Shown in pieces: positions 28,334 to 56,514 of a DNA stretch of 64,000 nt. Numbering within the stretch: the first letter of the stretch is position 1; each line of letters starts with the position of its first letter. The notes beneath the pieces are model-generated. The model saw only the letters and a list, made by a program, of their open reading frames with translations. It searched no databases and was not told where the DNA came from. The position numbers and the translations under genes are program-made. The stretch comes from Christiangramia forsetii KT0803 (lineage in GTDB: Bacteria; Bacteroidota; Bacteroidia; Flavobacteriales; Flavobacteriaceae): positions 1,426,001-1,490,000 of the forward strand of contig NC_008571.1 of NCBI RefSeq assembly GCF_000060345.1, written 5' to 3'.

Positions 28334-28379
28334 CAAATTTCACCTTATTTAGGAATCTATAATATGATTCTCATCATAA
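28334..28379 (-). promoter_or_regulatory. CRP/FNR-type activator site of ric
   Basis: ATATGATTCTCATCATAA (28362-28379) matches the shared ATATGA-N6-TCATAT dyad at all but the last base. On the minus strand TTTG occupies 28337-28334, exactly 35 bp from the dyad centre; the bases before it are GAAA, so the TA of the consensus is missing. The start codon is 60 bp away. Confidence 0.75.
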
Positions 28380-28383
28380 AAAA

Positions 28384-28397
28384 GGATAATTTTATCC
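28384..28397 (-). promoter_or_regulatory. Rrf2-type dyad in the ric promoter
   Basis: GGATAATTTTATCC is a perfect palindrome with 6-bp arms and a 2-bp centre. Its centre (28390.5) lies 20 bp upstream of the centre of the CRP/FNR-type dyad, the same arrangement as in the nosZ-operon promoter. Confidence 0.65.
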
Positions 28398-28422
28398 GAA
28401 ATAAATTTAAATTTTTTTTTAG

Positions 28423-28893
28423 CTAAATTTTTTCCCAGAAAGGATCCTGATATTCTTCTTTTGAATTGATCTCCAGATGTATTTGTTCAATTTTCTGAAA
28501 CTCTTCTGTAGTAGCCAATTTCTGAATTTCATTAAATAAAACACGCTCTTCAAACCGAATATGTGCCTGTAGTTCTTCCTCCAGTAGACTAAGTGATTTT
28601 TCAGGATTTTTGGTATCATTGAACAATCTTTTAATACGACGGTGCTCTTTTAAAGCTCGTTTTATCAATTCATGCTCTTTTTCCAGAATACTAAAAATAT
28701 ACTTTTCTTCTAGTTTGAAATGGGGGGCAATTTCATGTTCAAAAAACCAATCAGCATAGTTTTTCAATCGTTCCACAGAAACATTTTCAGAAAATCCTTT
28801 TCGAAGTTTCCATGAGAATAACAATCCAAAATGATGCTGGCGGCTAAGTGGCTTTAGTGCTTCGTGGCGTTTGATTGGCTTATTATTTTCCAT
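28423..28893 (-). CDS. Hemerythrin-like domain protein
   Basis: A 156-residue helical protein with the hemerythrin-type ligand set: H18 region (LSRQHHFGLLFSWKL), EHEIAPHFKLEEKYIF, ALKEHRRIKRLF and LQAHIRFEERVLFNEI. It probably binds a di-iron centre and senses or buffers O2 or NO. It lies nine bases downstream of the second rrf2 gene and upstream of ric, so regulator, hemerythrin and RIC form one functional group. Confidence 0.85.
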   Translation of the reverse strand: MENNKPIKRHEALKPLSRQHHFGLLFSWKLRKGFSENVSVERLKNYADWFFEHEIAPHFKLEEKYIFSILEKEHELIKRALKEHRRIKRLFNDTKNPEKSLSLLEEELQAHIRFEERVLFNEIQKLATTEEFQKIEQIHLEINSKEEYQDPFWEKI

Positions 28894-28902
28894 AAATTCT
28901 AT

Positions 28903-29331
28903 TTAAAGCTTTAAAAATGTTTTATTAGATTCTAGTTTTCCTGCCAGGCTCATAATTTCTGTATGTTCCAGCATTTTTTTTAAATCTCCGCGAATGGCTA
29001 TAAACTGGTCGTGAAGAGGGCAGGGCAAGGATTCTGAACATTCCTGCAAACCGAGTCCGCAGCCATTATAGATGAGGTCTCCATCTATCGCCTGAACAAT
29101 CGCTATAAGTTTTGTTTTGCTGGAAGGGTCAATAAAAAAACCACCAGATGGCCCTTTTCTGGATGCTACAATCTCATTTTTAGACAATTTCTGCATGATC
29201 TTGGCAGTGAATGCTTCGGGAGAATTCACAGCCCGTGCAATTTCTCCAAGATTAGACCTCATTCCGTTTTGTGACTGATGGGCGATATATAAAGTTGCGC
29301 GAATTCCATATTCGCAGGCTTTTGAGAACAT
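28903..29331 (-). CDS. Rrf2-family regulator, second copy
   Basis: A 142-residue paralogue of the regulator at 25613, with the same N-terminus (MFSKACEYGIRATLYIAHQS) and the same cysteine spacing C-x6-C-x5-C (GCGLGLQECSESLPC). It is expected to hold an Fe-S cluster and repress nitrosative-stress genes as NsrR does (family knowledge; the ligand is inferred). It is the first gene of a unit with the hemerythrin gene. Its promoter carries the same GGAYAA-type dyad as the other copy. Confidence 0.9.
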   Translation of the reverse strand: MFSKACEYGIRATLYIAHQSQNGMRSNLGEIARAVNSPEAFTAKIMQKLSKNEIVASRKGPSGGFFIDPSSKTKLIAIVQAIDGDLIYNGCGLGLQECSESLPCPLHDQFIAIRGDLKKMLEHTEIMSLAGKLESNKTFLKL

Positions 29332-29342
29332 TTCCTTTTTTA

Positions 29343-29382
29343 TAAAGATAAGATTCTATCAGAATTAAGGACATTTTTATCC
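29343..29382 (-). promoter_or_regulatory. Promoter with Rrf2-type dyad upstream of the second rrf2 gene
   Basis: The dyad GGACATTTTTATCC (29369-29382) is centred 31 bp from the TTTA of a TATCTTTA element (29350-29343, minus strand), nearly the same geometry as at the first rrf2 gene. The dyad begins 38 bp from the start codon. Confidence 0.6.
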
Positions 29383-29410
29383 TTAAATAAAACTCAAAGT
29401 TTATCTTTTT

Positions 29411-30022
29411 CTAGATACTTGCTGTACGTTTTTCATAAAGTGCCAGCTCCTGTAGTTCTGTTAGTATAGCCTTCCCTTTATCCTGATTATACCAAAGCTG
29501 TAAATTGGTTTTTACGATATCGTCTATTTTCCCATGTTCTTCAAGATAATCCTGAACCAGTTTCGTGGCGGCTGAAGAGCGTGGACCCCAAACATTCAAG
29601 ATTTCCTTTTCTTTATTTAAAATAATAAGTTTGGGAATAGAACGGGAGCCTTTGGTCAAAAATGCGTCCATCAGGTTTGGATTTTCGTCTCGCAAAACTA
29701 TTTTCAGCGCGATTTTTTCTGAAATTTGGGCAATCTTATTGAAAAATGGCAAACTTTGAGCTGCATCTCCACACCAGGGCTCGGTAATGACCAGCCAGGT
29801 CTGGTTTTCACGGATATTTTTAAAACATTGCTTTTCTTTTTCTGAAAGCTTAATCGTTTTGTCAAGACGTTTACTTCTGCTAAAATTTAGTTTAGTATAA
29901 TTGATCTTTTCGTCAGTTTCTTCACCGGTAGTTCGTCCTTTTTCTACCAGCTGTTTAAATAAAAGCTGATATTGAGAATATTCCATTGCATTTTTCAGGC
30001 TATTTTCTATAATCTCTTTCAT
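29411..30022 (-). CDS. Cytoplasmic thioredoxin-like protein
   Basis: A 203-residue thioredoxin-fold protein with no signal peptide. The active-site region reads TEPWCGDAAQSLPFF, so only the first cysteine of the usual CxxC is present. SRSIPKLIILNKEKEIL matches the cis-proline segment. It is thus a one-cysteine thioredoxin-like protein, probably not a classical dithiol reductase. It lies 35 bases downstream of the TIM-barrel-like gene and may share its promoter. Confidence 0.75.
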   Translation of the reverse strand: MKEIIENSLKNAMEYSQYQLLFKQLVEKGRTTGEETDEKINYTKLNFSRSKRLDKTIKLSEKEKQCFKNIRENQTWLVITEPWCGDAAQSLPFFNKIAQISEKIALKIVLRDENPNLMDAFLTKGSRSIPKLIILNKEKEILNVWGPRSSAATKLVQDYLEEHGKIDDIVKTNLQLWYNQDKGKAILTELQELALYEKRTASI

Positions 30023-30057
30023 AAAGTATCAATCTTTAAAAATTCTATATTATTACC

Positions 30058-31872
30058 TTAGGTTAGTTGCAAAGAACAGCGTTGGATTTGTTCCTGCATT
30101 CTGTGTATTTCAACTTCTGCCAGTTTCAGGGTTTTTCTAAAATTGTTTTCATTAGAAACCACTTTTTCTTTCACCAAGCTATGATAATACGCGATTCCGT
30201 TCTTTAAATTTTTTAAAAAATTGTTCCATTCCCGTATTTTTCTTTTATCGGGTGTTGTCACTTCTTCCAGTTGTTCTTTAAAAAAGTCGAGATATAGCTG
30301 AAGTTCTTTCATAAAAAAATGTGGCCTATCTTTCGTTGCTAAGAGCGTAGTTCGCCCGTATATGTGGTCGGTCATTTCTTTCAGACTTACTTTTTTATTA
30401 AAATTAACGATGTTTGGACCGGGACAAATGGTCACCGCATGCTGTTTTTTAAGAAATGGAGCCTGATATTTTAAGGAAGCCGAATTGCTTAAACCCACAC
30501 AAAGACATTCTTTGCTCAATACTTCATCCATTTGGCGATTATATTCAGCTTCAGAAAGATTTAAATCAGATAGCTGAGCTATTTTCTTTTTCTGATATTT
30601 CCGCGAAGCCGTGCAGATAGGAGTTTTGGTAAATTCGGTATTCGAAACCAGGAACTTTTCAGTACAGGGACTTCCAGGAACTTTATTCTCTATTCGTTTT
30701 AAACGTTCAATTTCGCCTGTAGTTTCTTTCAGATAATTGAAACCTACTCCCAAAGGTGAAGATTTACTCCGTATCACATCTTTTTCGCCAGAAGCCAGCA
30801 GTATCTCCATCGTCTGGTCATCTACCGTAGTTGCCTCCGGGCACAGTAGGAATGGAGTGCCCCAGCCGGTGCCGTCCATTCCATAATGTTCACGCAGTAA
30901 GGCATCTTCTTCAAAAGTGCCAATCCCGCCCTGAACGGTAATTCTTATGGGGTGCGGACTCAAAAATCCCGGTTTGTCTTTTTGTTCGAGCGCTGCGGAG
31001 TACAAACTGAACAGACTTTCGCTCAGCTCTTCTCTGTTTTCATTAAATTCCTTCAAAATAGGTCCCAATAACAATCCCTGGGTGGCAAAAACATGTCCGC
31101 CGCAATTAAGACCAGATTCTATCCTGAATTCACTTACCCAGATTCCTTTTTTGGCCAGGTATTTTCCCTGGATGAGCGCTGAACGGTAGTCGCTCACCTT
31201 TATGATGACTCTTTTTTTAAATTCTCCCCAGCCTGAAGCATCAAATTCGCTGAAATTTTCCAGGTAATTATATAGCCTTGGGTTCATTCCGGCAGAAAAG
31301 ATAATGGCCGAATTATCCAGCTCACTTTCAGCATATGCCTTTAAAGAAATTAGCGCATCAGAGCCGTTCTCAATAGGTAATCCCTCGCTGTCTGTATTAT
31401 CTTTATCAACTTTGGTCATCACATTTACCTCAATGGCGCCGGGAACAATATTTTTCTTTAAACTGGATAGAAGTTGTTCCTGTTCCTGTTCATCTTCCGA
31501 AGAAAGAAGATTCAGATATTTTTCTTTTAAAATGCTGTCATCTGGCAACATTTCAAAATATTTAGAAAGCTCAGATCCTGCTTCTATCGCAGAATTCTTC
31601 AATTTTTCAATCTTAGAACTAACGATACGCTGAACCAAATTCAAATAATCGCTTATTCGCCTGGCTCTATAATCGGGTTCTTTAGTGGTAATTGGAATAT
31701 ATTCCTCGTTGTTTTCACGGTAATAATGCTTGCGCATCGTCTCTATCAGGTTGTCTTCAATAATAGACATGGTAGAACTAATCCCGTAGCAGGCTACTTT
31801 AATTGGCGAATCTATAGAAAACGCCAGTCCCATAACTGGAATATGAAAACTGTGTGGTGAAAGTGTTTGCAT
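30058..31872 (-). CDS. TIM-barrel-like protein (possible nitronate monooxygenase relative), linked to the nos cluster
   Basis: A 604-residue protein without signal peptide. The start (HIPVMGLAFSIDSPIKVACY), a GLNCGGHVFATQG segment (about 254-266) and VQGGIGTFEEDALLREHYG followed by GWGTPFLL (about 313-343) are placed like the FMN-binding motifs of nitronate monooxygenases or FabK. About 250 extra residues are unassigned, and several cysteines lie in the second half (SPCTEKF, TPICTAS, KECLCVG, ICPGPNI). The promoter has one of the best TGA-N6-TCA dyads. The likely role is a redox enzyme of the anaerobic regulon; the substrate is unknown and the family placement tentative. Confidence 0.5.
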   Translation of the reverse strand: MQTLSPHSFHIPVMGLAFSIDSPIKVACYGISSTMSIIEDNLIETMRKHYYRENNEEYIPITTKEPDYRARRISDYLNLVQRIVSSKIEKLKNSAIEAGSELSKYFEMLPDDSILKEKYLNLLSSEDEQEQEQLLSSLKKNIVPGAIEVNVMTKVDKDNTDSEGLPIENGSDALISLKAYAESELDNSAIIFSAGMNPRLYNYLENFSEFDASGWGEFKKRVIIKVSDYRSALIQGKYLAKKGIWVSEFRIESGLNCGGHVFATQGLLLGPILKEFNENREELSESLFSLYSAALEQKDKPGFLSPHPIRITVQGGIGTFEEDALLREHYGMDGTGWGTPFLLCPEATTVDDQTMEILLASGEKDVIRSKSSPLGVGFNYLKETTGEIERLKRIENKVPGSPCTEKFLVSNTEFTKTPICTASRKYQKKKIAQLSDLNLSEAEYNRQMDEVLSKECLCVGLSNSASLKYQAPFLKKQHAVTICPGPNIVNFNKKVSLKEMTDHIYGRTTLLATKDRPHFFMKELQLYLDFFKEQLEEVTTPDKRKIREWNNFLKNLKNGIAYYHSLVKEKVVSNENNFRKTLKLAEVEIHRMQEQIQRCSLQLT

Positions 31873-31889
31873 TTTAATTTTTTGAAACT

Positions 31890-31935
31890 CAAAGATGGGA
31901 CTCCTGGAATTTTTTAAATATGACAGAAATCATAT
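31890..31935 (-). promoter_or_regulatory. CRP/FNR-type activator site of the TIM-barrel-like gene
   Basis: ATATGACAGAAATCATAT (31918-31935) has perfect 6-bp arms. On the minus strand CATCTTTG occupies 31897-31890, with TTTG exactly 35 bp from the dyad centre. The start codon is 45 bp away. Confidence 0.8.
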
Positions 31936-31995
31936 AATTTGATATTAAAAAATTTTAAATGCTTTTGCTTTGAGCATATAAGGTGGATGTTTTTA

Positions 31996-32041
31996 CCTCA
32001 CCCTCGGGGAGGTCGGAACTGTTTTTCAGTTCCGGGTGAGG
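31996..32041. repeat. REP-like palindrome between nosY and the TIM-barrel-like gene
   Basis: The nested dyad CCTCACCC (31996-32003) with GGGTGAGG (32034-32041) encloses CGGAACTG (32014-32021) with CAGTTCCG (32027-32034). Being downstream of nosY, it may also act as a transcript-end hairpin for the nos operon. Confidence 0.6.
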
Positions 32042-38852: not shown

Positions 38853-39353
38853 TTATTTCAAGGTCCTGAAATATTCCAGGATCTGACGGGCTTCCTCCTC
38901 GGTTAATCCCTGATTAGCCATAGGACTACCATTATGATCTATGAGTAGTTGCTTAGCAATAGGATCTTTAATTACCATTTCATTTGGATTGAGTATCATG
39001 TTCATCACCCATTCCGGAGATCTTCTTTCTAAAACACCAATTGGTGCAGGACCAATAAATTTCTTGGTAGGTTTGTGACAGGCAAGACATTTGGAATCAA
39101 AAATTACTTTTCCCTTAGCCGCCATAGCCTGATCTATTTCATCTGGTAATTCAAGATTTTTTACAGGCCCAATTCCTTTGTTATCCATATCTATCATGTT
39201 AACTTCAGAAGAGGCCGGTTTTGCTTTTTGGACTTCTTTTTTCTCGTAATTTCCTAGCTGGATTTCTTCTTTGTCTTTTTTATCCTCTTTCCCACCACAA
39301 CTTATAAGTAGTGCGAATCCAAATAAAAAGAGGCTTTTTATTACATTTTTCAT
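38853..39353 (-). CDS. Monohaem cytochrome c lipoprotein, first gene of the nosZ operon
   Basis: A 166-residue lipoprotein (C19 in LLISCGG) with a low-complexity lysine/glutamate linker and one class I cytochrome c domain: C89-L-A-C92-H93 and a methionine-ligand candidate in GSPMANQGLTEEEA. Probably delivers electrons to NosZ, replacing the NosR or quinol-linked routes of other clades (inference). Its promoter holds both dyads of this region (39405 and 39426). Confidence 0.88.
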   Translation of the reverse strand: MKNVIKSLFLFGFALLISCGGKEDKKDKEEIQLGNYEKKEVQKAKPASSEVNMIDMDNKGIGPVKNLELPDEIDQAMAAKGKVIFDSKCLACHKPTKKFIGPAPIGVLERRSPEWVMNMILNPNEMVIKDPIAKQLLIDHNGSPMANQGLTEEEARQILEYFRTLK

Positions 39354-39376: not shown

Positions 39377-39422
39377 CAAAATTAGAGGTAAAGCACCTCA
39401 AAAAATATGACCAAAATCATAT
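39377..39422 (-). promoter_or_regulatory. CRP/FNR-type activator site of the cytochrome c-nosZ operon
   Basis: ATATGACCAAAATCATAT (39405-39422) has perfect 6-bp arms. On the minus strand a full TAATTTTG element occupies 39384-39377, with TTTG 35 bp from the dyad centre. The start codon is 51 bp away. Confidence 0.85.
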
Positions 39423-39486: not shown

Positions 39487-39532
39487 TGATGATGAGCATC
39501 ATGTTTTAGGCCTATGCTAACCATTAATTTTG
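39487..39532 (+). promoter_or_regulatory. CRP/FNR-type activator site of hemN
   Basis: TGATGATGAGCATCATGT (39487-39504) contains ATGA-N6-TCAT. A full TAATTTTG element occupies 39525-39532, with TTTG exactly 35 bp from the dyad centre. The start codon is 47 bp downstream of the dyad. Confidence 0.8.
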
Positions 39533-39551: not shown

Positions 39552-40916
39552 ATGGAAGGGAATTTAATTTCTAAATACAATGTAGCAGGACCGCGCTATA
39601 CCAGTTATCCAACAGTACCTTATTGGGATGAAACCAGTTTTAACGATAAGGAGTGGAAGAGGAGCCTGCAGAAAAGTTTCCAGGAAAGCAATCATTCTGA
39701 AGGTATTAGTATTTATATACACTTACCATTTTGCGAAAGTTTATGCACTTTTTGCGGTTGCAATAAGCGGATCACCAAAAATCATTCGGTAGAAGTTCCC
39801 TATCTGGAATCTGTTTTAAAAGAATGGGGAATGTATTGCAATCTTTTTGATGAAATACCAATTATAAAAGAGCTTCATCTTGGCGGAGGAACGCCCACTT
39901 TTTTTTCCGCAGAAAATCTGAAATTATTGCTAAGCGGTATTTTTAAGAAATCCCTTAAAGCGGAAGATGCCGAATTGAGTTTTGAAGGCCATCCCAATAA
40001 TACCAGTTTTGAACATCTAAGCCTTTTTTCCTCTTTTGGTTTTACCCGGGTAAGCTATGGTGTACAGGATTACAATGAGCAGGTTCAGAAAGCGATACAC
40101 CGAGTCCAGCCTTTTGAGAATGTAAAAAGAGTTACTGAAGAAGCGCGTACCAATGGTTTCACTTCGGTTGGACATGACATTATATTCGGTTTACCGTTTC
40201 AAACCAAAGAGCATATTATACATACTATTGAGCGTACCAAAGAATTAATGCCAGATCGAATCGCATTTTACAGTTACGCCCATGTACCCTGGATTAAAGG
40301 AAATGGTCAAAGAGGTTTTAAAGATGAAGATCTTCCCAGCGCCGATGGCAAACGGGAACAATATGAAACAGGAAAAAAAATGCTACTGGAGGCCGGTTAT
40401 GTAGAAATTGGAATGGATCATTTTGCGTTACCTTCAGACAGCCTTTTTGAAGCCTTAGAAAATAAAAGAATTCATAGGAATTTTATGGGTTATACTGCTT
40501 CTAAAACAAAAACTATGATTGGGTTGGGAGTTTCAGCCATTAGTGATAGCTGGTATGGTTTTGCCCAAAATGTGAAAAATGTTGAAGAATATCAAAACCT
40601 GGTAGAAAATAATATTTTACCAATTTATCGAGGTCATATTTTGAATGAGGAAGATCTTATCATTAGGAAACACATTCTTAACCTGATGTGCAAATTGCAA
40701 ACTTCGTGGTATACCGGCAATCAATTTTTTAAGGCATTACCACAAACACTTTTCAGTTTAAAGGAAATGCAAAAGGACGGACTCCTTGAAATTGACACCA
40801 ATTTCCTGAAAGTAACCGAAAAAGGGAGACCCTTTGTTCGCAATGTATGTATGGCCTTTGATATGCGCCTACAAAGACAAAAACCAGAAAACCAATTATT
40901 TTCCATGACCATTTAA
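39552..40916 (+). CDS. hemN: Oxygen-independent coproporphyrinogen III dehydrogenase
   Basis: A 454-residue radical-SAM enzyme that makes protoporphyrinogen IX precursors without O2. The 4Fe-4S/SAM motif is C61-x3-C65-x2-C68 followed by GCNK, as in true HemN rather than HemW. HLGGGTPTFF, SFGFTRVSYGVQDYNEQVQ and GLPFQTKEHI are further family motifs. Length is standard. The promoter dyad places it with cco and nos genes, which need haem under low O2. Confidence 0.95.
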   Translation: MEGNLISKYNVAGPRYTSYPTVPYWDETSFNDKEWKRSLQKSFQESNHSEGISIYIHLPFCESLCTFCGCNKRITKNHSVEVPYLESVLKEWGMYCNLFDEIPIIKELHLGGGTPTFFSAENLKLLLSGIFKKSLKAEDAELSFEGHPNNTSFEHLSLFSSFGFTRVSYGVQDYNEQVQKAIHRVQPFENVKRVTEEARTNGFTSVGHDIIFGLPFQTKEHIIHTIERTKELMPDRIAFYSYAHVPWIKGNGQRGFKDEDLPSADGKREQYETGKKMLLEAGYVEIGMDHFALPSDSLFEALENKRIHRNFMGYTASKTKTMIGLGVSAISDSWYGFAQNVKNVEEYQNLVENNILPIYRGHILNEEDLIIRKHILNLMCKLQTSWYTGNQFFKALPQTLFSLKEMQKDGLLEIDTNFLKVTEKGRPFVRNVCMAFDMRLQRQKPENQLFSMTI

Positions 40917-42473: not shown

Positions 42474-43307
42474 TTAAATCTTAAAAGTAATTACCGGAAT
42501 ATTGGCATGATTTGCAACATCTTCTCCTACGCTGCCATAAAAGAAATGGCTTAAACCTTGTCGACCATGTGTGGGAATAGCGATGGCATCAATTTTCAAT
42601 TCATTGCAGTAATTAAAGATTCCTTTTTCTGCGGTGTAATCATCATAGAATATAATTTCATCTTTAATCTCCTTATTATCCACTCCCACATCGATTAAAA
42701 AATTATGGGCTTTTAGATTCATTTCACTGGAACTCATAAATTTTTCAGGGATATTAATGAACAGTATTTTGGGTTCCACGTTAAAAACTTTAAAGAATTT
42801 TCTTACCCTTATAAATGAATTTAGAGTGTCAGGTTCAAAATCGGTTACAAAAACTGCATTTTCAATATTAAAGTTAGAAGTTCTTTCTTTTATAACCAGT
42901 ACTGGAATATCTGAAGTACGTACTACTTTTTCAGTATTAGAACCAATAAAAACTTCCTTCATGCCGGTTGATCCTTGGGAACCCATTACAATTAGATCGG
43001 CTTTATATTCTGATGCTAACTCATTAACTTCAGCAAAGACCTTATTGGTGGTGACCACTTCTTGAATATCTAATCCATTTAGATAGTCTTTATCCAGCAA
43101 TTTCTGAAAACCCTTCCTGGTAAGTTTCATATAATAGATGGCATTAAATACCTCTTGTTTTTCATCTTTGGTAAGAAAAGATTCCGAGAGGCCCATCATA
43201 TGGAGCACAATAATTTCAGCATTTTGTTTTTTTGCAATACTGGCAGCAACTTCCAGAGCATATTCTGAATATTCTGAAAAATCTACGGGTACGAGTATAG
43301 TTTTCAT
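42474..43307 (-). CDS. Universal stress protein, tandem Usp domains
   Basis: A 277-residue protein of two Usp domains. Domain 1 (1-145) has the nucleotide-binding pattern VMGSQGSTGMKEVFIGSNTE; domain 2 ends GRQGLSHFFYGSVGEDVANH with the same pattern. Usp proteins act in stress and growth-arrest survival. A TGA-N6-TCA dyad at 43355 drives it, so it is expected to be induced under low O2, like several Usp genes under FNR-type control elsewhere. Confidence 0.93.
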   Translation of the reverse strand: MKTILVPVDFSEYSEYALEVAASIAKKQNAEIIVLHMMGLSESFLTKDEKQEVFNAIYYMKLTRKGFQKLLDKDYLNGLDIQEVVTTNKVFAEVNELASEYKADLIVMGSQGSTGMKEVFIGSNTEKVVRTSDIPVLVIKERTSNFNIENAVFVTDFEPDTLNSFIRVRKFFKVFNVEPKILFINIPEKFMSSSEMNLKAHNFLIDVGVDNKEIKDEIIFYDDYTAEKGIFNYCNELKIDAIAIPTHGRQGLSHFFYGSVGEDVANHANIPVITFKI

Positions 43308-43326: not shown

Positions 43327-43372
43327 CAAATCTAATTAATTCTTCTAGTGGAAAATATGACACACGTCAACA
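43327..43372 (-). promoter_or_regulatory. CRP/FNR-type activator site of the first universal stress gene
   Basis: ATATGACACACGTCAACA (43355-43372) keeps the full left arm and TCA on the right. On the minus strand TAGATTTG occupies 43334-43327, with TTTG 35 bp from the dyad centre. The start codon is 48 bp away. Confidence 0.75.
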
Positions 43373-43743: not shown

Positions 43744-45006
43744 TTGCAGGATACTTTTCTTGATAATAAAAACCTATTTAACCTTCTTTTTGAGGCAGCT
43801 TCTGAAGGTATTATCGTGGTCAATTCTAAACAAATCGTCGTCGTAGCTAATACCGCGGCAGAAGAAATGTTTGGATACAAAAAGGGGCAGATTATTAACC
43901 AACATCTGGACATCCTAATTCCTAAGAAATATCATCACCGGCACCATAATCATTTTAATAAATTCCTTGATAATAGTGAAAAGCGTCAGATGGGGCATGG
44001 CAGGGATCTGTATGGAGCAAAAAAAGACGGTACATTATTTCCTGTAGAAGCCGGTCTAAATCCATTTAAGATGAACGGCGAAGATTATGTAATGTCGCTT
44101 GTGATAGATATTAGCGTTAGAAAAGAGACACAAAGGCAAATAAAGGAACTAAACAGTGAACTTGAAGAAAAGATAAAAATAAGAACCCTGGAATTACGCG
44201 AAAGTGTAGATGATTTAAAGGACTTAAATCTGGATCTCGAAGAGGAAATAAATCGGCGAAAAGAAGCTGAAAAAAAGATCAAGGATGCGCTTCAAAAAGA
44301 GAAAGAACTGAGTGATCTAAAAACAAAATTCCTTTCTCTGGTATCTCATGAATTTAAAACCCCATTAAGCGGAATTCTTACTTCGGCAACCCTGGCAGAA
44401 AAATATATAAAGGAAGAACAGCAGGAGAAAAGGGAAAAGCACTTATTAACGATTAGAAATAAGGTGCATTATCTAAATAATATCCTTAATGATTTTCTAT
44501 CAATAGAGCGATTGGATAGTGGCCGGGGACAATATAAATTTTCAAAATTCGGTTTAAAGCGACTGATTAACGAGGTGATATATAATGCGAATATTACCTT
44601 AAAAGACGGGCAGGAAATCAATTATCCCAAAGACATAGAAGATGTAGAGCTCTATATGGACGAAAAGATATTAGAATTGATCCTTTCTAACCTGCTGGGC
44701 AATGCCATAAAATATTCTCCGGAGAACACGCTCATTAAATTTATGGTAGAATTTGAAAGAGAGTCAATTATTTTTAAAATTGAAGATCAGGGACGGGGAA
44801 TTCCGGAGAAAGATCAGAAGCATATTTTTGAAAGGTATTTTAGAGCTGAGAATGCGTTGCTGGATCAAGGAACCGGTATTGGGTTGAATATTGCCAAAAC
44901 ACATCTTGAGAATCTGGGAGGTACCATTGAATTTAAGAGTGTAGAAAACAAAGGAACCACATTTAAGGTGAAGATTCCTATGAATAATTCATATACAGAA
45001 AACTAA
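43744..45006 (+). CDS. PAS-domain sensor histidine kinase, FixL-like
   Basis: A 420-residue soluble kinase that starts with TTG. The PAS domain (about 10-125) contains IPKKYHHRHHNHFNKFL and EKRQMGHGRDLYGAKKDG. Aligned by eye to FixL, H67 falls on the proximal haem histidine and R87 on the distal arginine. A coiled coil follows (130-190), then HisKA with H202 (SLVSHEFKTPLSG) and the ATPase domain (LLGNAIKYSPENT, DQGRGIP, GTGIGLNIA). No membrane helix. Similar PAS domains without haem are common, so O2 sensing is an inference supported by the partner gene and regulon. Confidence 0.85.
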   Translation: MQDTFLDNKNLFNLLFEAASEGIIVVNSKQIVVVANTAAEEMFGYKKGQIINQHLDILIPKKYHHRHHNHFNKFLDNSEKRQMGHGRDLYGAKKDGTLFPVEAGLNPFKMNGEDYVMSLVIDISVRKETQRQIKELNSELEEKIKIRTLELRESVDDLKDLNLDLEEEINRRKEAEKKIKDALQKEKELSDLKTKFLSLVSHEFKTPLSGILTSATLAEKYIKEEQQEKREKHLLTIRNKVHYLNNILNDFLSIERLDSGRGQYKFSKFGLKRLINEVIYNANITLKDGQEINYPKDIEDVELYMDEKILELILSNLLGNAIKYSPENTLIKFMVEFERESIIFKIEDQGRGIPEKDQKHIFERYFRAENALLDQGTGIGLNIAKTHLENLGGTIEFKSVENKGTTFKVKIPMNNSYTEN

Positions 45007-45021: not shown

Positions 45022-46065
45022 ATGAAAAAATTATTGCTAATTGAAGATGATGTGACTGTAAGAGAGAATACGGCAGAACTTCTCGAACTCTCTAATTATG
45101 ATGTAATTACAGCGAGTAACGGGATGCTAGGTATCGAAAAAGCGGAACAAAACCTTCCCGATATTATCGTGTGTGATATCATGATGCCGGAAATTGACGG
45201 ATATGGAGTGCTGGAGGCACTGGGCAAAAATCCTAATACGCTCAATATTCCATTTATTTTCCTTTCAGCAAAGACAGAGCATAAAGATATTAGAAAAGGA
45301 ATGGATCTTGGGGCTGATGATTACTTGACCAAACCTTTTGAAGAAGAAGAGTTAGTAAGTGCTATTGAAAGTAGGCTGGCCAAAGTGGCAATTCTCAATG
45401 CCAATAGAAATGGAAATCCTGTTGCAAGAAATGATGAAAAACTTAAAACGCTGGACGATTTAAGAACAATTTTTCAACAACAGGATTTACAGTTTATTAA
45501 AAAAGGAGAAAGCGTTTACGAAAAAGATAAGCATGCCAATTTCTTTTACCTGCTGAAAAGGGGCGTAGTTAAGGTTCATCGTATAGACAACCAGGGAAAA
45601 GAACTGATCACTGAACTTTATAAGGAAGATGATTTTTTTGGGAATCACGCAGATGATCCTCAATCATCTTATGAAGACTATGCAACGGCTATGGAAGACA
45701 CGCAGTTGTACGCTCTTTCCAGAGAAGAGTTTCATAAAATACTTTCTGAAAATCCAAAAATTTCCATGCAGCTTGTGGAGGTACTAAGTAATAACCTTTC
45801 TGAATTGAAGCAGCAATTAATGGATATGGCTTACGGATCTGTTAGAAAGAAAACAGCCAAAACCATTATGATGTTTGCAGAAAGAATTAAAAAACATCCA
45901 CTAAAAAGTATTCGCATATCCAGGGCAGATCTTGCCGGAGTAGCCGGTATGGCACCAGAAAGCTTGATTAGAACGCTTTCAGAATTCAAAAAAGAAGGGC
46001 TTATAGAGATCGAAGGACGTAACATCAAATTGCTTAATTCTGAAGCTTTAAAAATGGTCAAATAA
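45022..46065 (+). CDS. Response regulator: receiver domain fused to CRP/FNR module
   Basis: A 347-residue protein. The receiver (1-125) has phospho-acceptor D52 (VCDIMMPEIDG) and the KPF lysine motif. A cyclic-nucleotide-binding-type beta-roll (about 150-260) and a CRP/FNR helix-turn-helix (about 285-340) follow. In the recognition helix (GMAPESLIRTLSEF) the E and R that contact TGA half-sites in CRP and FNR are kept. The CRP part has no cysteines, so no FNR-type Fe-S cluster: the signal should come by phosphorylation from the kinase 15 bases upstream. Best local candidate to bind the ten TGA-N6-TCA dyads. Confidence 0.9.
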   Translation: MKKLLLIEDDVTVRENTAELLELSNYDVITASNGMLGIEKAEQNLPDIIVCDIMMPEIDGYGVLEALGKNPNTLNIPFIFLSAKTEHKDIRKGMDLGADDYLTKPFEEEELVSAIESRLAKVAILNANRNGNPVARNDEKLKTLDDLRTIFQQQDLQFIKKGESVYEKDKHANFFYLLKRGVVKVHRIDNQGKELITELYKEDDFFGNHADDPQSSYEDYATAMEDTQLYALSREEFHKILSENPKISMQLVEVLSNNLSELKQQLMDMAYGSVRKKTAKTIMMFAERIKKHPLKSIRISRADLAGVAGMAPESLIRTLSEFKKEGLIEIEGRNIKLLNSEALKMVK

Positions 46066-46090: not shown

Positions 46091-46136
46091 AACTGATTTT
46101 CATCATTTTTTTGGTTGAGGACTTCACTTAATTTCG
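46091..46136 (+). promoter_or_regulatory. CRP/FNR-type activator site of the second universal stress gene
   Basis: AACTGATTTTCATCATTT (46091-46108) keeps TGA-N6-TCAT. A TAATTTCG element at 46129-46136 is centred 35 bp from the dyad centre. The start codon is 48 bp downstream of the dyad. Confidence 0.7.
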
Positions 46137-46155: not shown

Positions 46156-46923
46156 ATGAATGTTTTAATTCTTACCGATTTTTCAGATACCTCCGATAAT
46201 GCGGGTAGATACGCCGTAGATTTTCTCCAGAAGACTGCAGCAAATTTCTATTTACTGAATATCCATAATTTCAATTTTGATAGATCTGCTCATAAACTTT
46301 TGGATAAAGAGTTAGTTGGTACTTTACATAACCTGGAATTGGGAGTGAAAATTCTGGAATATTATACGAAGAACAAGCAACATAAATTTAATACCATACT
46401 TTCTTCTGAAAATCTTATCAGTGCAGTTAGAAAGGCAATGCTGGAAAAGAAAATCGACCTTATTTTTATAGGAGCCGTGAGCCAGGAAGAACATGCCCAT
46501 CCCATTCTGGGAGATCATGCCTATGATGTGGTACGCAAGATCAAGTGCAATATTATAGCAGTTCCTGCAGGATGTAACTTTGAAAATCCCAGAAAAGCAG
46601 TTTTTCCGGTAGACCGTACTATTTTGTCTACTCTTGAACAACAAAAGATTTTTGATAATCTTGCCTATCTGAATACTTCAGAATTTACCTTGTTAGAAAT
46701 AAAAGATGTAGATAAGGAATATTCAGAAAATACTAAAGATAGCATTCCTTTTAAAGCACCTGTTTTTTTTACCAGGAACCTGTTTAAGAATATTCAGAAA
46801 GAATTTGATATCATTTTTATTTTCGGGAAGAATCTAAATATATGCGACAGGCTCTTGCATACCGAGTATGGATTTACAGCAAATATGGATATTGAAATTC
46901 CCATATTTGTGTACCATGGATAA
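46156..46923 (+). CDS. Universal stress family protein, divergent
   Basis: A 255-residue Usp-fold protein. The first half begins MNVLILTDFSDTSDNAGRYA like other Usp proteins, but the nucleotide-binding segment reads GAVSQEEHAHPILGDHAYDVV and lacks the usual glycine pattern, so ATP binding is doubtful. The second half is a weaker repeat. It lies just after the receiver-CRP gene with its own dyad-bearing promoter. Confidence 0.8.
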   Translation: MNVLILTDFSDTSDNAGRYAVDFLQKTAANFYLLNIHNFNFDRSAHKLLDKELVGTLHNLELGVKILEYYTKNKQHKFNTILSSENLISAVRKAMLEKKIDLIFIGAVSQEEHAHPILGDHAYDVVRKIKCNIIAVPAGCNFENPRKAVFPVDRTILSTLEQQKIFDNLAYLNTSEFTLLEIKDVDKEYSENTKDSIPFKAPVFFTRNLFKNIQKEFDIIFIFGKNLNICDRLLHTEYGFTANMDIEIPIFVYHG

Positions 46924-47168: not shown

Positions 47169-47561
47169 TTATAATTTAGCCTGGCGTCCCTGGTAGATTC
47201 TTAGGAAAAGATGTGTAGACATTTTGCGGGCATTATTCTTCAATCGCTGAGCCATTTCTCCTTCAAATAGCTCGTCTATAGTTTGAAACCAAAGGTTGAG
47301 CCAGATCCCAAAATGATATTCTGTGATACTATTGTTATGTTCCATGTCTACTTTTACGTGTGCCATGGCAGGATTTCCTCGGAAACTGCCAGTAAAGAAC
47401 AGGTTACTTTCCCAAAAATCGGTAAGCTTTTCCAAATGCTCATCCCAATCTTCAATAGTATTGTTGAAAAAGTAACCTATTTCTTCATTCTTTCTAACCT
47501 TGCTGTAAAAAGTTACAACCAGTTTATTAATATCGGCACGTTCTTTTAAATCTTCTTTCAT
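47169..47561 (-). CDS. Truncated haemoglobin, group III type, second copy
   Basis: A 130-residue globin with the same general pattern as the one at 21600: LEKLTDFWESNLFFTGSFRG, proximal histidine in ITEYHFGIWL, and FQTIDELFEGEMAQRLKNNA. It probably binds NO or O2. It lies three bases after the 93-residue membrane protein, and the pair is led by a TGA-N6-TCA dyad at 47900, so this copy belongs to the low-O2 regulon while the other does not show such a site. Confidence 0.88.
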   Translation of the reverse strand: MKEDLKERADINKLVVTFYSKVRKNEEIGYFFNNTIEDWDEHLEKLTDFWESNLFFTGSFRGNPAMAHVKVDMEHNNSITEYHFGIWLNLWFQTIDELFEGEMAQRLKNNARKMSTHLFLRIYQGRQAKL

Positions 47562-47564: not shown

Positions 47565-47846
47565 CTAGAGTATATTGATAAGAATAAAAGTAGTGCTTAC
47601 CAAAAGACTTATAATTAAAGAATTGAATACAAATTTAGATTTTAGCTGCGCAAGCACAGATGCATTAAACCACATACAAACTACAACGATAAGTCCAAGT
47701 TGAATCATGTCTACTAATCCATGTCCATTCATTAGTACAAGCATGGCTGCGATAGACCCCAAACAGCTGGAAACTATGATACCTGTAGTTGCTCCGGCAT
47801 AAAAATCTCTAGTGAATTCTGAAAGTTGTTTTTGATAAAAAGTCAT
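47565..47846 (-). CDS. Small membrane protein paired with the globin gene
   Basis: A 93-residue protein with three hydrophobic segments (about 16-36, 41-60, 70-92) and no recognised motif. It is the first gene after a strong dyad-bearing promoter and overlaps no other frame with homology. Close pairing with the truncated haemoglobin suggests a membrane partner in O2 or NO response (inference). Family unknown. Confidence 0.6.
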   Translation of the reverse strand: MTFYQKQLSEFTRDFYAGATTGIIVSSCLGSIAAMLVLMNGHGLVDMIQLGLIVVVCMWFNASVLAQLKSKFVFNSLIISLLVSTTFILINIL

Positions 47847-47871: not shown

Positions 47872-47917
47872 TAAAATTATACAAGGTGGTAGTTTTAAAA
47901 TATGACGGGAGTCAGGA
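47872..47917 (-). promoter_or_regulatory. CRP/FNR-type activator site of the membrane protein/globin pair
   Basis: ATATGACGGGAGTCAGGA (47900-47917) keeps the left arm and TCA. On the minus strand TAATTTTA occupies 47879-47872, 35 bp from the dyad centre. The start codon is 54 bp away. Confidence 0.75.
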
Positions 47918-51368: not shown

Positions 51369-51947
51369 CTATTTATTAAATTGAGTTTCGAATTTTACGG
51401 TTACTTTTTCACCCGTCTTTATAGTTCCGAACATTGCTGTAGGGGCTTCTATTCCATATTCTGTCATGTTGAATTGATAATCGCCTGTAAGAATAATATG
51501 ATTGGATTCTGATTTTAGGTTAAAATTGAGTTTGATATCCTTCTTTGTCCCTGCTATTTCCAGACTTCCAATAGTTGTCACTTTATAAGCCTTTGTAGAA
51601 ACTTCTTCGATACTTTCAACTTTTTTGAGTTTATAAGTGATCTCTTTATATTTATCTGTATTTAAAGCTTTATAAGTGTTTTTATCCATTCCACTTTTTC
51701 CACTCACTAAACTTTCGACTATCACGGTAAATTCTAATTTATCTATCTCATCTAACTTACCTTCATCAAATTCAGCAGTTAGGTTACCACTGGTATTTTT
51801 AGCTTCGATTGTCCAGTCGTGAATATTAGAAGTACCATCTATAAGGAGACTGGAAGCTTCGTTGTTCAGTTTGTAGGATTGAGCATTTACTCCAAAGCTT
51901 AGAAGTAGAACTGCTATAAACATCCCGAGAGTTTTGTAAGGTTTCAT
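51369..51947 (-). CDS. YceI family exported protein
   Basis: About 192 residues from the ATG at 51947, which starts a proper signal peptide (MKPYKTLGMFIAVLLLSFG). The longer frame from 51974 adds nine residues and would overlap the promoter element. YceI barrel signatures: SLLIDGTSNIHDWTIEAKN, FTVIVESLVSGKSGMDKNTY, GSLEIAGTKKDIKLNFNL, FNMTEYGIEAPTAMFGTIK. It is the first gene of a three-gene unit and is preceded by a TGA-N6-TCA dyad. Confidence 0.88.
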   Translation of the reverse strand: MKPYKTLGMFIAVLLLSFGVNAQSYKLNNEASSLLIDGTSNIHDWTIEAKNTSGNLTAEFDEGKLDEIDKLEFTVIVESLVSGKSGMDKNTYKALNTDKYKEITYKLKKVESIEEVSTKAYKVTTIGSLEIAGTKKDIKLNFNLKSESNHIILTGDYQFNMTEYGIEAPTAMFGTIKTGEKVTVKFETQFNK

Positions 51948-52298
51948 ATCGATTACATTTTTAAATCGGTACAAAGATGCAGTAGGAATGGGAGGTAAAT
52001 TATGATGAAAATCAGGTTTTGGAATATTTGAATATATTGTTAAGTGCCGAAAACGTTATGTTTAGAAAAAAAGCATTCCCTGACGCTCGTCATATTTTTA
52101 CGGCATTTATTTTTCAAAATTTGTATCTAATATTTTTTGCTGTTTTAAAGATTGAGCATGATATACTATTTGTTGCAGCTCTTTTTCAAAACTGCATATT
52201 TTGGATACTATAGATGATAAAGAATCATAGCTTGAAATATTTATGTTTTTGACTTTATTGATTCAATATCCAGTAGATCTTACTAAAAATTTATTCTT
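51948..52298. other. Intergenic region between divergent YceI and universal stress genes
   Basis: It contains the YceI activator site (51972-52017). Further right, ATGATAAAGAATCAT (52214-52228) is a perfect dyad, but with a 7-bp rather than 6-bp TGA-TCA spacing. A short open frame here (52019-52213) has no support. No other structure seen. Confidence 0.5.
51972..52017 (-). promoter_or_regulatory. CRP/FNR-type activator site of the YceI operon
   Basis: TTATGATGAAAATCAGGT (52000-52017) keeps TATGA-N6-TCA. On the minus strand CATCTTTG occupies 51979-51972, with TTTG 35 bp from the dyad centre. The start codon chosen is 53 bp away. Confidence 0.7.
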
Positions 52299-53153
52299 AT
52301 GAAAAATATTCTTGTTTGTACCGATTTTTCGAAAGATGCCTATTGCGCACTTCACTATGTTACCAACTTGTTTCAAAATAAATCCTGTAAATTTTCTATT
52401 CTTCATTCTTATCATGAGGATTTTGAAATATATCCTTATCCTGCAGTGCAAGAAGGTGGGTACATTGACAAATTGAATGCAAAACAAAATTCCCTCTTGA
52501 AAGGAGAGGAACTCTTGCATACAATTAAACGGGATAATAATTCCCTGGCACATACCTATGAATTTATAAATACAGATTTAAGTCTAACAAACGCTATTTT
52601 AAATAGAACTTCTGAAAAGTCTGTAGATCTTGTAGTCCTGGGGAACCATGGTTTAGATGGGATAAAGCAATATCTATTTGGAAGTAATAGCTTAAATGTA
52701 TTAAAAGAGGTGCATAGTGTTCCAGTTTTAATGGTGCCGCAACAAGTTGATTTTAAATCACCAAAGAAAATTGCATTCGCAACAGACTATAAGGCAAAGT
52801 TCCATAAACCGGAATTTGAAATATTAAAAACCTGTGTGAAGAATTTTGGTGCTGAGGTACATTTTATATGTGTTGGTAAGGAAGAGGAAATGACCAAACA
52901 ACAGTGGGAAAATTTTAACCTGCTTAAATCCTTTTTTCAGGAAGAGGATCGTAACTTTAAATGGCTTCAGATTGAAGAGGAAAATTCTAAGGCAATTGCG
53001 ATGCATGTTAAAGAAGAAAAAATGGATCTCCTTGTTATGATAAAATATAAGCATGAAAGTTTTAAATTTTTCAGGGAACCAGTGATCATGCAACTAGATC
53101 GTCATTTGCGTTTTCCTTTTCTTATCATCCCGTCTATAGACATAAAACCATAA
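52299..53153 (+). CDS. Universal stress protein, tandem Usp domains
   Basis: A 284-residue protein. Domain 1 opens MKNILVCTDFSKDAYCALHY and has the nucleotide-binding segment LGNHGLDGIKQYLFGSNSL. Domain 2 is degenerate and ends EPVIMQLDRHLRFPFLIIP without the glycine motif. It is followed five bases later by a lipoprotein gene. No good TGA-N6-TCA site is seen upstream, unlike the two Usp genes near the regulator. Confidence 0.88.
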   Translation: MKNILVCTDFSKDAYCALHYVTNLFQNKSCKFSILHSYHEDFEIYPYPAVQEGGYIDKLNAKQNSLLKGEELLHTIKRDNNSLAHTYEFINTDLSLTNAILNRTSEKSVDLVVLGNHGLDGIKQYLFGSNSLNVLKEVHSVPVLMVPQQVDFKSPKKIAFATDYKAKFHKPEFEILKTCVKNFGAEVHFICVGKEEEMTKQQWENFNLLKSFFQEEDRNFKWLQIEEENSKAIAMHVKEEKMDLLVMIKYKHESFKFFREPVIMQLDRHLRFPFLIIPSIDIKP

Positions 53154-53157
53154 AATA

Positions 53158-53766: not shown

Positions 53767-53980
53767 CATTAAATCCTAATAATGTATTTCGGAAAAGATT
53801 TCAATCAAATTAGACTTGGTAACGATGCACATTTATTTTTAGGTATTTTATATAGATAGGTTATATTCTTTCCGTTTTTTCTCAAATTATTATATTTCAT
53901 AATACTCTAGATCATTATAATAAAAAAAATGATGGTCGTTAGAAAAATTGTATATGATCCAGATATTGTAATAAAGTATT

Positions 53981-54026
53981 CTCTGACCACGGTCATATTT
54001 TCAAAGCATCCATTTTATCAGTTTTG
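53981..54026 (+). promoter_or_regulatory. CRP/FNR-type activator site of ccoI
   Basis: CTCTGACCACGGTCATAT (53981-53998) has a perfect TGACC/GGTCA core. A CAGTTTTG element at 54019-54026 has TTTG 35 bp from the dyad centre. The start codon is 52 bp downstream of the dyad. Confidence 0.8.
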
Positions 54027-54050
54027 TAGCTTTAAATTCTATTTCAAAAT

Positions 54051-56468
54051 ATGGAATCATGCTTTCATTGCGGGGACGATTGTCTGGAGGAAATTATTGC
54101 CTTTGATGATAAGTCCTTTTGTTGTTCAGGTTGTAAGACTGTTTTTGAAATTTTAAATACCAACGATCTTTCTTATTATTATGAGTTGGAAAAGGCACCT
54201 GGTATTTCCCCGAAAATAAGGGAAGGAAAGTATGATTATTTGGAAAACTCTGAGATCATTGAAAGACTACTTGAGTTTGATCATGATAATACCCAAATAG
54301 TTTCCTTTAGCATTCCTTCTATACACTGTAGTTCCTGTATCTGGATTCTTGAAAATCTGAATAAACTGCATAAAGGAATTAAAAGCTCCCAGGTAGATTT
54401 TCCTAAAAAAACGATTAGATTAAGCTTTTCTTCGGAAGAAATGAGCCTGAAGAATCTGGTGCTTTTACTGGTTCGTATAGGTTATGAGCCAAATATTTCC
54501 CTGGATAATTATGACGCGAATGAATCAAGTGTAGATAGAAGTTTGATCTATAAACTTGGAGTGGCAGGCTTCGCTTTTGGAAATATTATGTTTCTTTCAT
54601 TTCCTGAATATTTTGAGATCAATGAATTCTGGCTGGAACAGTTCAAACATCTATTTCGATGGTTGATGTTTATTTTTTCGTTACCGGTAGTATTTTACTC
54701 AGGGAGAGATTATTTTATCTCGGCTTTTAAAGGATTAAGATCTGGTATTCTAAATATTGATGTACCAATAGCCCTGGGGATAAGTGTGCTTTTTATTAGA
54801 AGTACTGTAGAGATACCTCTGGACCTGGGAACAGGATTCTTTGACAGTCTTAGCGGACTTGTATTTTTCCTTTTGCTTGGTAAATTTTTTCAGCAAAAAA
54901 CCTATTCTTTTCTCTCTTTTGAAAGAGATTATAAATCATACTTCCCCATCGCCATTACCCGTGTTATTTCTAAAGAGGGTAAGCAGCTAGAAGAACAAAT
55001 CCAGGTATATAAGATTGAAAAAGGGGACAGGATCATTATTCGAAATGAAGAGCTTATCCCAATGGACGCTATTCTTATAAAAGGCGATGCTAAAATTGAC
55101 TATAGTTTTGTGACAGGTGAAGCAGAGCCGGTTTCTAAAATTAGCGGAGATAAACTTTACGCTGGCGGGAGACAGCAGGGAGGGATCATAGAACTGGAAG
55201 CACTGAGACCTGTAAAGCAAAGTTACCTTACAGAGCTTTGGAGTGATGAGGTGTTTAGTAAAGACAAAAATTCTGTTTTTCAGAATTTAACCAACCAGAT
55301 TAGTAAGCGGTTTACCTATGCTGTTTTGTGCATAGCAATACTTTCTACAACATTTTGGATGTTCTATGACCCGTCAAAAGCATGGAATGTATTTACGGCA
55401 GTGCTCATCATCGCTTGTCCCTGTGCTATTGCCCTGGCTGCGCCTTTTACCCTTGGAAACATGTTAAGGATCTTCGGAAAGAATCATTTATACCTGAAAG
55501 ATGCCAATATTATTGAAAAAACCGCTGAAATAGATACCGTGGTTTTTGATAAGACCGGAACTATTACTACGAATGATCGAAGCCGTATTGAATATGAAGG
55601 CTTAGAGCTAACCAGTGAAGAAAAGCAATTGCTTGGAGGAAGTCTTCGAGCTTCTAATCACCCTTTAAGTCGGTCATTATATAATATTCTGGATAAGCAT
55701 AATATTTCAACACCAGAGAGTTTTACTGAGCATACCGGGCAGGGACTGGAAACTACTTATAAGAATCTTCATCTCAAAGTTGGATCTCCAGCATTTGTGG
55801 ATCAAGCGGCAAGACATTTTACGGAACTTCAGCAGAAAAAGAAAGTTGAGAGAACTTCAGTTTATATCAGCACTAATAATCAATACAAAGGCTGTTTTAC
55901 TTTTCATAATTCTTACAGGAATGGACTTTCAGATATATTTAAAGAACTTTCAGTAAACCGAAAAATTATAATTCTTTCAGGAGATAATGATGGGGAGCGC
56001 GCAAGATTACAGGAAATAGTACCGCAGGGAACTAACATGTTTTTCAATCAAAAACCTGGAGATAAACTCCAGTATATAAAAGACCTTCAGTCACAAGGCC
56101 GAAAGGTAATGATGGTAGGAGATGGATTAAACGATGCAGGTGCATTAGCTCAGAGTGATGTGGGAATCGTAATATCTGAAGATATCAATGTTTTTTCACC
56201 CGCTTGTGATGGAATTTTAGATGCGAAGCGATTTAAGGATTTGGGTAGCTTCTTTGATCTATCTGGCAAGGCTATCAAAGTGATACAGCTAAGTTTTTTA
56301 TTGTCTCTCTTTTATAATTTAATAGGACTTGGTTTTGCGGTTACCGGAAATCTTATGCCTGTGGTTGCAGCGATACTAATGCCTTTGAGTTCTATTAGTA
56401 TTGTGGTATTCACTACATTGGTAACACAAATAATCACAAAAGATCTAAAAATTAAGAGAAGAACCTAA
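54051..56468 (+). CDS. ccoI: Copper-exporting P-type ATPase for cbb3 oxidase assembly
   Basis: An 805-residue P1B-type ATPase. The N-terminus has a cysteine-rich metal-binding segment (CFHCGDDCLEE, FCCSGCKTVFE) and a heavy-metal-associated domain with IHCSSCIW. CPC in the membrane (ACPCAIALAAPF), phosphorylation site DKTGTITT and hinge GDGLNDAGALAQSD follow. FixI/CcoI exports Cu(I) to the periplasm for the CuB site. It leads the cco gene set, with its own activator site. Confidence 0.95.
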   Translation: MESCFHCGDDCLEEIIAFDDKSFCCSGCKTVFEILNTNDLSYYYELEKAPGISPKIREGKYDYLENSEIIERLLEFDHDNTQIVSFSIPSIHCSSCIWILENLNKLHKGIKSSQVDFPKKTIRLSFSSEEMSLKNLVLLLVRIGYEPNISLDNYDANESSVDRSLIYKLGVAGFAFGNIMFLSFPEYFEINEFWLEQFKHLFRWLMFIFSLPVVFYSGRDYFISAFKGLRSGILNIDVPIALGISVLFIRSTVEIPLDLGTGFFDSLSGLVFFLLLGKFFQQKTYSFLSFERDYKSYFPIAITRVISKEGKQLEEQIQVYKIEKGDRIIIRNEELIPMDAILIKGDAKIDYSFVTGEAEPVSKISGDKLYAGGRQQGGIIELEALRPVKQSYLTELWSDEVFSKDKNSVFQNLTNQISKRFTYAVLCIAILSTTFWMFYDPSKAWNVFTAVLIIACPCAIALAAPFTLGNMLRIFGKNHLYLKDANIIEKTAEIDTVVFDKTGTITTNDRSRIEYEGLELTSEEKQLLGGSLRASNHPLSRSLYNILDKHNISTPESFTEHTGQGLETTYKNLHLKVGSPAFVDQAARHFTELQQKKKVERTSVYISTNNQYKGCFTFHNSYRNGLSDIFKELSVNRKIIILSGDNDGERARLQEIVPQGTNMFFNQKPGDKLQYIKDLQSQGRKVMMVGDGLNDAGALAQSDVGIVISEDINVFSPACDGILDAKRFKDLGSFFDLSGKAIKVIQLSFLLSLFYNLIGLGFAVTGNLMPVVAAILMPLSSISIVVFTTLVTQIITKDLKIKRRT

Positions 56469-56514
56469 ACCTGACAATGGTCATTTTTTAAGCTACACCC
56501 TCATAATACTTTTA
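56469..56514 (+). promoter_or_regulatory. CRP/FNR-type activator site of ccoS-ccoNO-ccoQ-ccoP
   Basis: ACCTGACAATGGTCATTT (56469-56486) keeps TGA-N6-TCAT. A TACTTTTA element at 56507-56514 is centred 35 bp from the dyad centre. The start codon is 46 bp downstream of the dyad. Confidence 0.75.

Follow-up and report, generated by a model that had tools for sequence, protein, structure and literature searches.

A conserved composite promoter and a putative haem-PAS kinase/receiver-CRP pair in a compact, proposed low-oxygen regulon of Christiangramia forsetii

The FixL-FixJ-FixK cascade of the Alphaproteobacteria, which also occurs as hFixL-FxkR-FixK, joins a FixL-type PAS kinase to an FNR-family output that reads the box TTGAT-N4-ATCAA, and cco, hemN and nos genes are among its targets. 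FixJ is a receiver with a LuxR-type DNA-binding output that switches on fixK. FnrN, a regulator of the FNR type, reads the same anaerobox as FixK, according to the available parts of PMC7888657 and PMC4999443. FNR carries an N-terminal cysteine cluster, and the targets of FNR, ANR and FnrN overlap those described below. In Escherichia coli the half-site of CRP is TGTGA, and class II activation is marked by a fixed distance of -41.5 from the transcription start. Oxygen control in the Bacteroidota outside the gut is, to our knowledge, poorly described. This paper deals with a stretch of 64,000 nucleotides of Christiangramia forsetii KT0803 (NC_008571.1, positions 1426001-1490000 of the 3,798,465-bp chromosome; hereafter the window), in which eleven promoters share one composite site and a FixL-like kinase gene adjoins the gene of a response regulator with a CRP-type output (receiver-CRP).

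A preliminary description of the window had claimed ten TGA-N6-TCA dyads, each at an invariant 35 bp from a TTTG-like tetramer. All ten 18-bp dyads are present, and the tetramer begins 27 bases past TCA in 10/10 of them, that is, 35.0 bp from centre to centre; on the strand of the served gene it is TTTG in seven cases, TTTA in two and TTCG in one. To these is added an eleventh composite at 52081-52123 (+), 5' of the Usp gene at 52299. The core is tighter than had been given, being TGAY-N4-RTCA in 11/11 window composites, and a T-run immediately 3' of the dyad (TCATATTTT) is a further new element; the column profile of 85 promoters from relatives reads TGAY-N4-RTCA-TATTTT-N17-TAnnTTTG. The tetramer had been said to lie often inside TAnnTTTG, which is fair: counted by eye, the full TA is found at 5/11 window sites (39377, 39490, 43327, 46094 with TTCG and 56472 with TTTA), the site at 47872 is AAnnTTTA, and the remaining composites without the full TA keep the A alone. 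The window has 13 TGAY-N4-RTCA cores (26 when oriented), and the composite is present at eleven, the two cores without it lying at 446 and 9402. The features are as follows; scores come from a matrix built from relatives alone (85 promoters), and fractions give relatives' loci with the composite upstream of the corresponding gene.

28334..28376, minus strand: ric promoter (gene 27570-28301); score 14.6, the weakest of the eleven
31890..31932, minus strand: promoter of the gene 30058-31872, for a 604-amino-acid protein of unknown family; score 25.5
39377..39419, minus strand: promoter 5' of the cytochrome c gene 38853-39353, downstream of which lie fasciclin-domain and nosZ genes; score 32.9; 2/2 (CytC before nosZ)
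39490..39532, plus strand: hemN promoter (gene 39552-40916); score 20.5; 6/6 Christiangramia-type loci, 7/34 overall
43327..43369, minus strand: promoter of the Usp gene 42474-43307 (UspA); score 21.6; 24/47
43744..45006, plus strand: PAS-HisKA-HATPase kinase whose PAS domain resembles that of FixL, a proposed sensor of O2 via haem (domain, residue and fold matches)
45022..46065, plus strand: receiver-CRP, a response regulator with receiver, cyclic nucleotide monophosphate (cNMP)-type domain and Crp helix-turn-helix (HTH), proposed activator of the eleven promoters (domain matches)
46094..46136, plus strand: promoter of the Usp gene 46156-46923 (UspB), TTCG variant, directly 3' of the receiver-CRP gene; score 20.4; 34/35
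47872..47914, minus strand: promoter of 47565-47846 (93-amino-acid protein) and the globin-like gene 47169-47561; score 25.0; 15/18
51972..52014, minus strand: promoter of the YceI-domain gene 51369-51974 (YceIb); score 23.4; 14/14
52081..52123, plus strand: promoter of the Usp gene 52299-53153 (the eleventh, newly found); score 20.8
53984..54026, plus strand: promoter of the CcoI-type P-type ATPase gene 54051-56468; score 27.8; 18/23
56472..56514, plus strand: promoter of the cbb3 oxidase genes, fused ccoNO 56729-58924, then ccoP, ccoG and ccoH; score 34.7; 22/22

The same arrangement is found in relatives. They were sampled as 199 Flavobacteriaceae genomes, one per genus (this sample and the phylum sample below being one draw each), and as 80 named loci from related species, which are often congeneric and hence not independent; the closest are from Christiangramia (receiver-CRP 84% identical). 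The 199 genomes contain 1228 composites, against 117 for a reversed control. In the surroundings (about 20 kb) of 20 receiver-CRP loci, TAnnTTTG occurs 35 times at offset 27 and 0-3 times at other offsets from 14 to 59; around 15 loci of an FNR-like protein, which is discussed below, the figures are 16 and 0-1. The possibility, raised in the preliminary description, that the composite might be as frequent in genes as upstream of them is not borne out: in the 80 loci TTTR stands at offset 27 of 342/789 oriented intergenic dyads (8-41 at the other intergenic offsets, 14-49) and of 7/164 dyads inside genes. The spacing between dyad and promoter element is thus fixed across the family.

The sites of the relatives precede the first genes of operons, and 85 of their 126 composites stand before a gene with a homologue in the window; the rule that assigns downstream genes is generous, 120/126 composites having a start, some of them of very short open reading frames (ORFs). 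Besides the frequencies listed above, the composite was found upstream of 63/92 UspC-type, 8/16 globin-type, 2/17 AcCoA hydrolase and 2/26 DeoC genes, as well as 40/415 other ORFs of at least 200 amino acids. In the same 80 loci it was not found upstream of CcoP (0/26), CcoG (0/28), CcoH (0/29), the second YceI (0/15), the porin (0/14), ric (0/8) or the FNR-like gene (0/7). Consequently, among the served genes named in the preliminary description, membership of the oxidase, Usp and YceI genes is general, that of hemN is kept within the genus and that of nos was seen in two loci only. The claim is weaker for ric, which has the weakest site and no support outside this genome, and for the globin, where the Pfam match of 47169-47561 (-) to Bac_globin is below the cut-off (E-value 0.06), so that the label is plausible and not firm. 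In four relatives (L136, L140, L149 and L150) the neighbourhood of the receiver-CRP gene contains several Usp-family genes, and every one of them has a composite promoter of its own.

The reading preferred here, with a probability of about 0.76, is that the low-oxygen regulon of the window is read by its own two-component pair, the kinase 43744-45006 and the receiver-CRP 45022-46065. It is carried by the composite and its spacing, by the genes downstream, by the adjacency of the two genes, by the conservation of haem ligands and recognition helix, and by co-occurrence across genomes. The scheme would be as follows: O2 would inhibit the FixL-like haem-PAS kinase; when O2 falls, the kinase would phosphorylate the receiver of the adjacent receiver-CRP; the phosphorylated protein would bind TGAY-N4-RTCA, centred at -41.5, as a dimer; and RNA polymerase with the primary sigma factor would be recruited by class II activation, sigma reading TAnnTTTG and the T-run 3' of the dyad sitting where an upstream promoter element would be. 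The genes so switched on would be those of the cbb3 oxidase, its P-type ATPase and nitrous oxide reductase together with hemN, ric, Usp and YceI. Such a scheme would amount to a FixL-FixJ-FixK cascade like that of rhizobia in which a FixJ-like receiver and a FixK-like output had been fused into one protein.

The PAS domain of the kinase matches FixL with an E-value of 1.1e-18 in an ungapped alignment, and DosP is also matched. Counted along the alignment, H67 and R87 correspond to His200 and Arg220 of Bradyrhizobium FixL. The roles of the FixL haem His and of the O2-contacting Arg are described in the available part of PMC10765370. The proximal His is kept in 30/30 kinases and the distal Arg in 29/30, and the histidine-kinase gene directly adjoins the receiver-CRP gene in 30/30 loci. 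In the predicted fold (predicted local distance difference test score, pLDDT, 84.7; a model of the PAS domain alone, made from 13 sequences) H67 lies within helix 61-76, and the best 22 Foldseek matches are all haem-PAS sensors. The protein thus has the make-up of a FixL kinase, namely a histidine kinase linked to a PAS domain in which the proximal haem His and the distal Arg are both kept, and its PAS domain probably binds haem and O2. The strongest competing explanation leaves regulator and operators as described but has the PAS domain sense redox state, nitric oxide or some other ligand and not O2 via haem. Nitrosative stress would likewise be in keeping with the ric, globin-like and nos genes, and the fold matches LOV photoreceptors lower in the Foldseek list; nevertheless this explanation is unlikely, for the FixL proximal His and distal Arg are kept together in 29/30 kinases, the nearest solved structures are haem sensors, and the best-conserved targets are the cbb3 oxidase, Usp and YceI genes.

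The receiver-CRP has the features expected of its class, namely the phosphoacceptor Asp and the Lys of a TKPF motif (105/105 receiver-CRP proteins), a cNMP-type domain and a Crp HTH, and its recognition helix A-x-E-x-x-I-R is likewise kept in 105/105. It is not FixJ by its output, which is a cNMP-type domain with a Crp HTH; it is not FixK, since an N-terminal receiver is present, although the box core and the Glu/Arg helix agree with FixK; and it is not an Fe-S protein of the FNR type, since the N-terminal cysteine cluster is lacking. In CRP an Arg binds the phosphate of cAMP. The corresponding position is mostly Tyr or Glu in the 105 sequences (hand alignment), and cAMP is therefore improbable as a ligand. 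Of the seven cNMP-domain proteins in the genome, the receiver-CRP alone combines a winged Crp HTH with the Glu...Arg helix. In genomes with the receiver-CRP alone the composites number 6.9 on average (reversed control 0.5).

A single regulator serving the entire family is, however, excluded, because the receiver-CRP is absent from 113/199 genomes and these still average 4.2 composites. This pointed to the FNR-like protein, about 225 amino acids long, which is found in 70 of the 113 (G036, at 36% identity, was taken out of the class, leaving 118/119). It has six invariant Cys (30/30), among them those of a CxxC at 4-7 and C106, which aligns with a Cys in the solved structure of FNR, and it shares the E-x-x-I-R helix with the receiver-CRP. 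The composite stands before CcoNO in 14/15 of its loci and before CcoI in 12/15. Mean numbers of composites per genome are 6.9 with the receiver-CRP only (n=38), 10.2 with both (n=48), 6.2 with the FNR-like protein only (n=70) and 0.95 with neither (n=43; control 0.33). Relatives of the FNR-like protein are also found further out than the family. Another cysteine-containing CRP-type family (about 254 amino acids, helix TEEQVIR) was seen in relatives (L098, L099, L100 and L101).

These data bear on a second explanation, that another CRP/FNR-family protein, such as one of two short proteins of about 204 amino acids with a TPESLSR helix, reads the sites and the kinase-regulator pair controls something else. 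The composites do persist in genomes without the receiver-CRP; there, however, they accompany the FNR-like protein, with the composite before CcoNO in nearly all its loci, as given above. That protein is absent from the genome of C. forsetii at an E-value of 1e-40, and none of the seven cNMP proteins resembles it. The short TPESLSR proteins end right past the recognition helix and have no wing, and the gene of the receiver-CRP sits amid the regulon and, in relatives, adjoins composite-bearing Usp genes. A reader other than the receiver-CRP is accordingly improbable.

As to the sign of regulation, the transcription starts mapped in Flavobacterium psychrophilum put TAnnTTTG at -12 to -5, as given in the available part of PMC9723704, and therefore the dyad centre would lie at -41.5, the class II position, with start positions carried over from that species. 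The leaders that follow have a median of 18 nucleotides in 67 promoters of relatives, CcoNO being left out, with 44/67 between 10 and 30 nucleotides; these lengths are rough, since start codons were taken as the first possible ones. The median is 24 in F. psychrophilum, and its cbb3 oxidase expression is strongly raised under oxygen limitation, again according to the available part of PMC9723704. The preliminary description had proposed a class II CRP/FNR activator on a Bacteroidota promoter. Fixed spacing of a two-fold symmetric CRP/FNR-type site from the core promoter element and the position before the first genes of operons agree with it, as would the -41.5 placement, and activation upon binding is proposed. 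A repressor or a dual regulator bound to the dyad would be the alternative, the sign not being readable from sequence alone; the class II distance and the rise of cbb3 in F. psychrophilum both speak against it, and it is considered quite improbable.

The idea of a chance arrangement of common AT-rich words, to which the mild enrichment of TGA-N6-TCA alone lends a little colour, is negligible, being already refuted by the single-offset peak in relatives, the reversed-pattern and coding controls and the simulations. The dyad alone was rejected as the signal: it occurs 34 times in the window against 20.5 (standard deviation 5.5) in shuffles, 2/100 of which reach 34, and the signal is therefore the composite. 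The eleven sites have the eleven top matrix scores in the window (34.7 to 14.6, the next being 12.9), and the same matrix gives maxima of at most 11.5 in six first-order Markov (Markov-1) simulations of the window. The fixed letters of the matrix are fixed by construction, because its training sites were chosen with the same core pattern.

Several points weigh against control by the adjacent pair. Haem and O2 binding, phosphotransfer, DNA binding and activation by the pair are all deduced from sequence. FixL Arg206 is Lys in this kinase. The short CRP-type proteins of this genome do carry a Glu...Arg helix and are possible binders. Autoregulation through the composite is rejected, since none was found upstream of the kinase (0/78) or the receiver-CRP (0/80) in the 80 loci. 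In Christiangramia-type loci the composite is present at CcoI in 5/9 only and at UspA in 4/8. Fused CcoNO is absent (E-value 1e-100) from 42/43 genomes with neither regulator, so the contrast with them is confounded and may only reflect loss of the target, which weakens the absence of composites as proof of dependence. What emerges is that the oxidase and the composite travel together with one or both of the two regulators, which does not imply that composites decay upon loss of the regulators alone. An exception among the 43 is G048 (L253), with fused CcoNO, 10 composites and neither regulator; it is 82% complete, and the missing regulator is probably a gap. Finally, among 198 Bacteroidota-wide genomes a stricter composite occurs 108 times in 19 genomes of the family against 53 times in 179 others. 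Relatives of the receiver-CRP (35-46% identity) are found in 20/28 'same class' genomes of other families, and these 20 genomes have 17 stricter composites, on average 0.85 each; the protein there must therefore use other sites or another spacing. The site code is a feature of the Flavobacteriaceae, not of the whole regulator family.

Across this chromosome, the exact form TGAY-N4-RTCA-N3-WTT-N21-TTTR has 9 matches, 8 of them in the window (reversed control 2), and with one mismatch allowed it has 54, against 17 for the reversed pattern. A genome scan with a matrix had been proposed in the preliminary description. When 68 distinct sites from the pattern scans were scored with the matrix from relatives, at least 20 was reached by 10/11 window sites (ric excepted) and by 1/54 candidates outside. 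The single outside site, 967792 (21.0), lies inside a gene on the other strand, as does 1171774 (14.0), and 57644 (16.5), whose dyad is imperfect, is placed where an unrelated enzyme gene begins. The other 51 score below 15. Because only one outside site reaches 20, and that one is intragenic, the regulon is nearly restricted to about 28 kb, in which its proposed regulator is encoded as well; sites with looser dyads may exist elsewhere.

Compared with the systems described at the outset, the FixLJ-FixK cascade is the closest known design, and the locus would work like it, although the domains of the regulator make it neither a FixJ nor a FixK. The kinase type, the FNR-family output and the common targets are alike, and the boxes are TTGAT-N4-ATCAA there and TGAY-N4-RTCA here. 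The difference is that FixJ or FxkR switches on fixK transcription, whereas in this locus a single protein contains both the receiver and the CRP output, so that one transcription step is gone; the phylum and the -7 element also differ, and the regulon is tight and local. With FNR, ANR and FnrN the half-site core is shared, and the FNR-like protein of relatives (CxxC plus a third Cys) accompanies the same promoters, but the present regulator has a receiver domain in place of the cysteine cluster. The class II CRP promoters of E. coli would share the -41.5 dyad centre and the place of the abutting upstream promoter element, and differ in having TATAAT where TAnnTTTG is found here, and the half-site TGTGA for TGAY. 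The -7 element is that of flavobacterial sigma-A promoters, with the shorter leader median given above. This activator dyad is not described in the available part of PMC9723704, and the words Fnr, Crp and palindrom are absent from its main text. Among the open-access papers listed by searches aimed at it, none reports a FixL-type kinase paired with a receiver-CRP in Bacteroidota, though an earlier description may exist. The likely sensor, a FixL-type PAS kinase, the exchange with the FNR-like protein in relatives and the near-confinement of the regulon go beyond the preliminary description.

We lean towards a wider view, parallel to what is known in rhizobia, in which the promoter code of the Flavobacteriaceae would have two exchangeable O2 readers, one being a haem sensor kinase whose partner joins a receiver to a FixK-like output and the other a cysteine-cluster FNR-like protein. 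Lineages would keep the one, the other or both, with the operator, the -41.5 placement and the core targets remaining fixed while the sensor chemistry is swapped under a conserved regulon, nearly all of which is packed around its regulator in C. forsetii. This would provide a natural experiment on sensor exchange, and a fixed promoter code would allow low-oxygen and N2O-reduction genes to be predicted across a large family.

The 604-amino-acid protein (30058-31872, -), which has no Pfam or NCBIfam match at an E-value of 0.001 and a composite among the stronger ones, is a candidate low-oxygen gene product of unknown function. In addition, the window holds a second COX1-family gene at 22741-25568 (-), with a FixO/cytochrome c partner; the window scan gave no composite promoter before the genes of this second oxidase (22741-25568 region), and two Rrf2 genes (25613-26047 and 28903-29331) lie near it.

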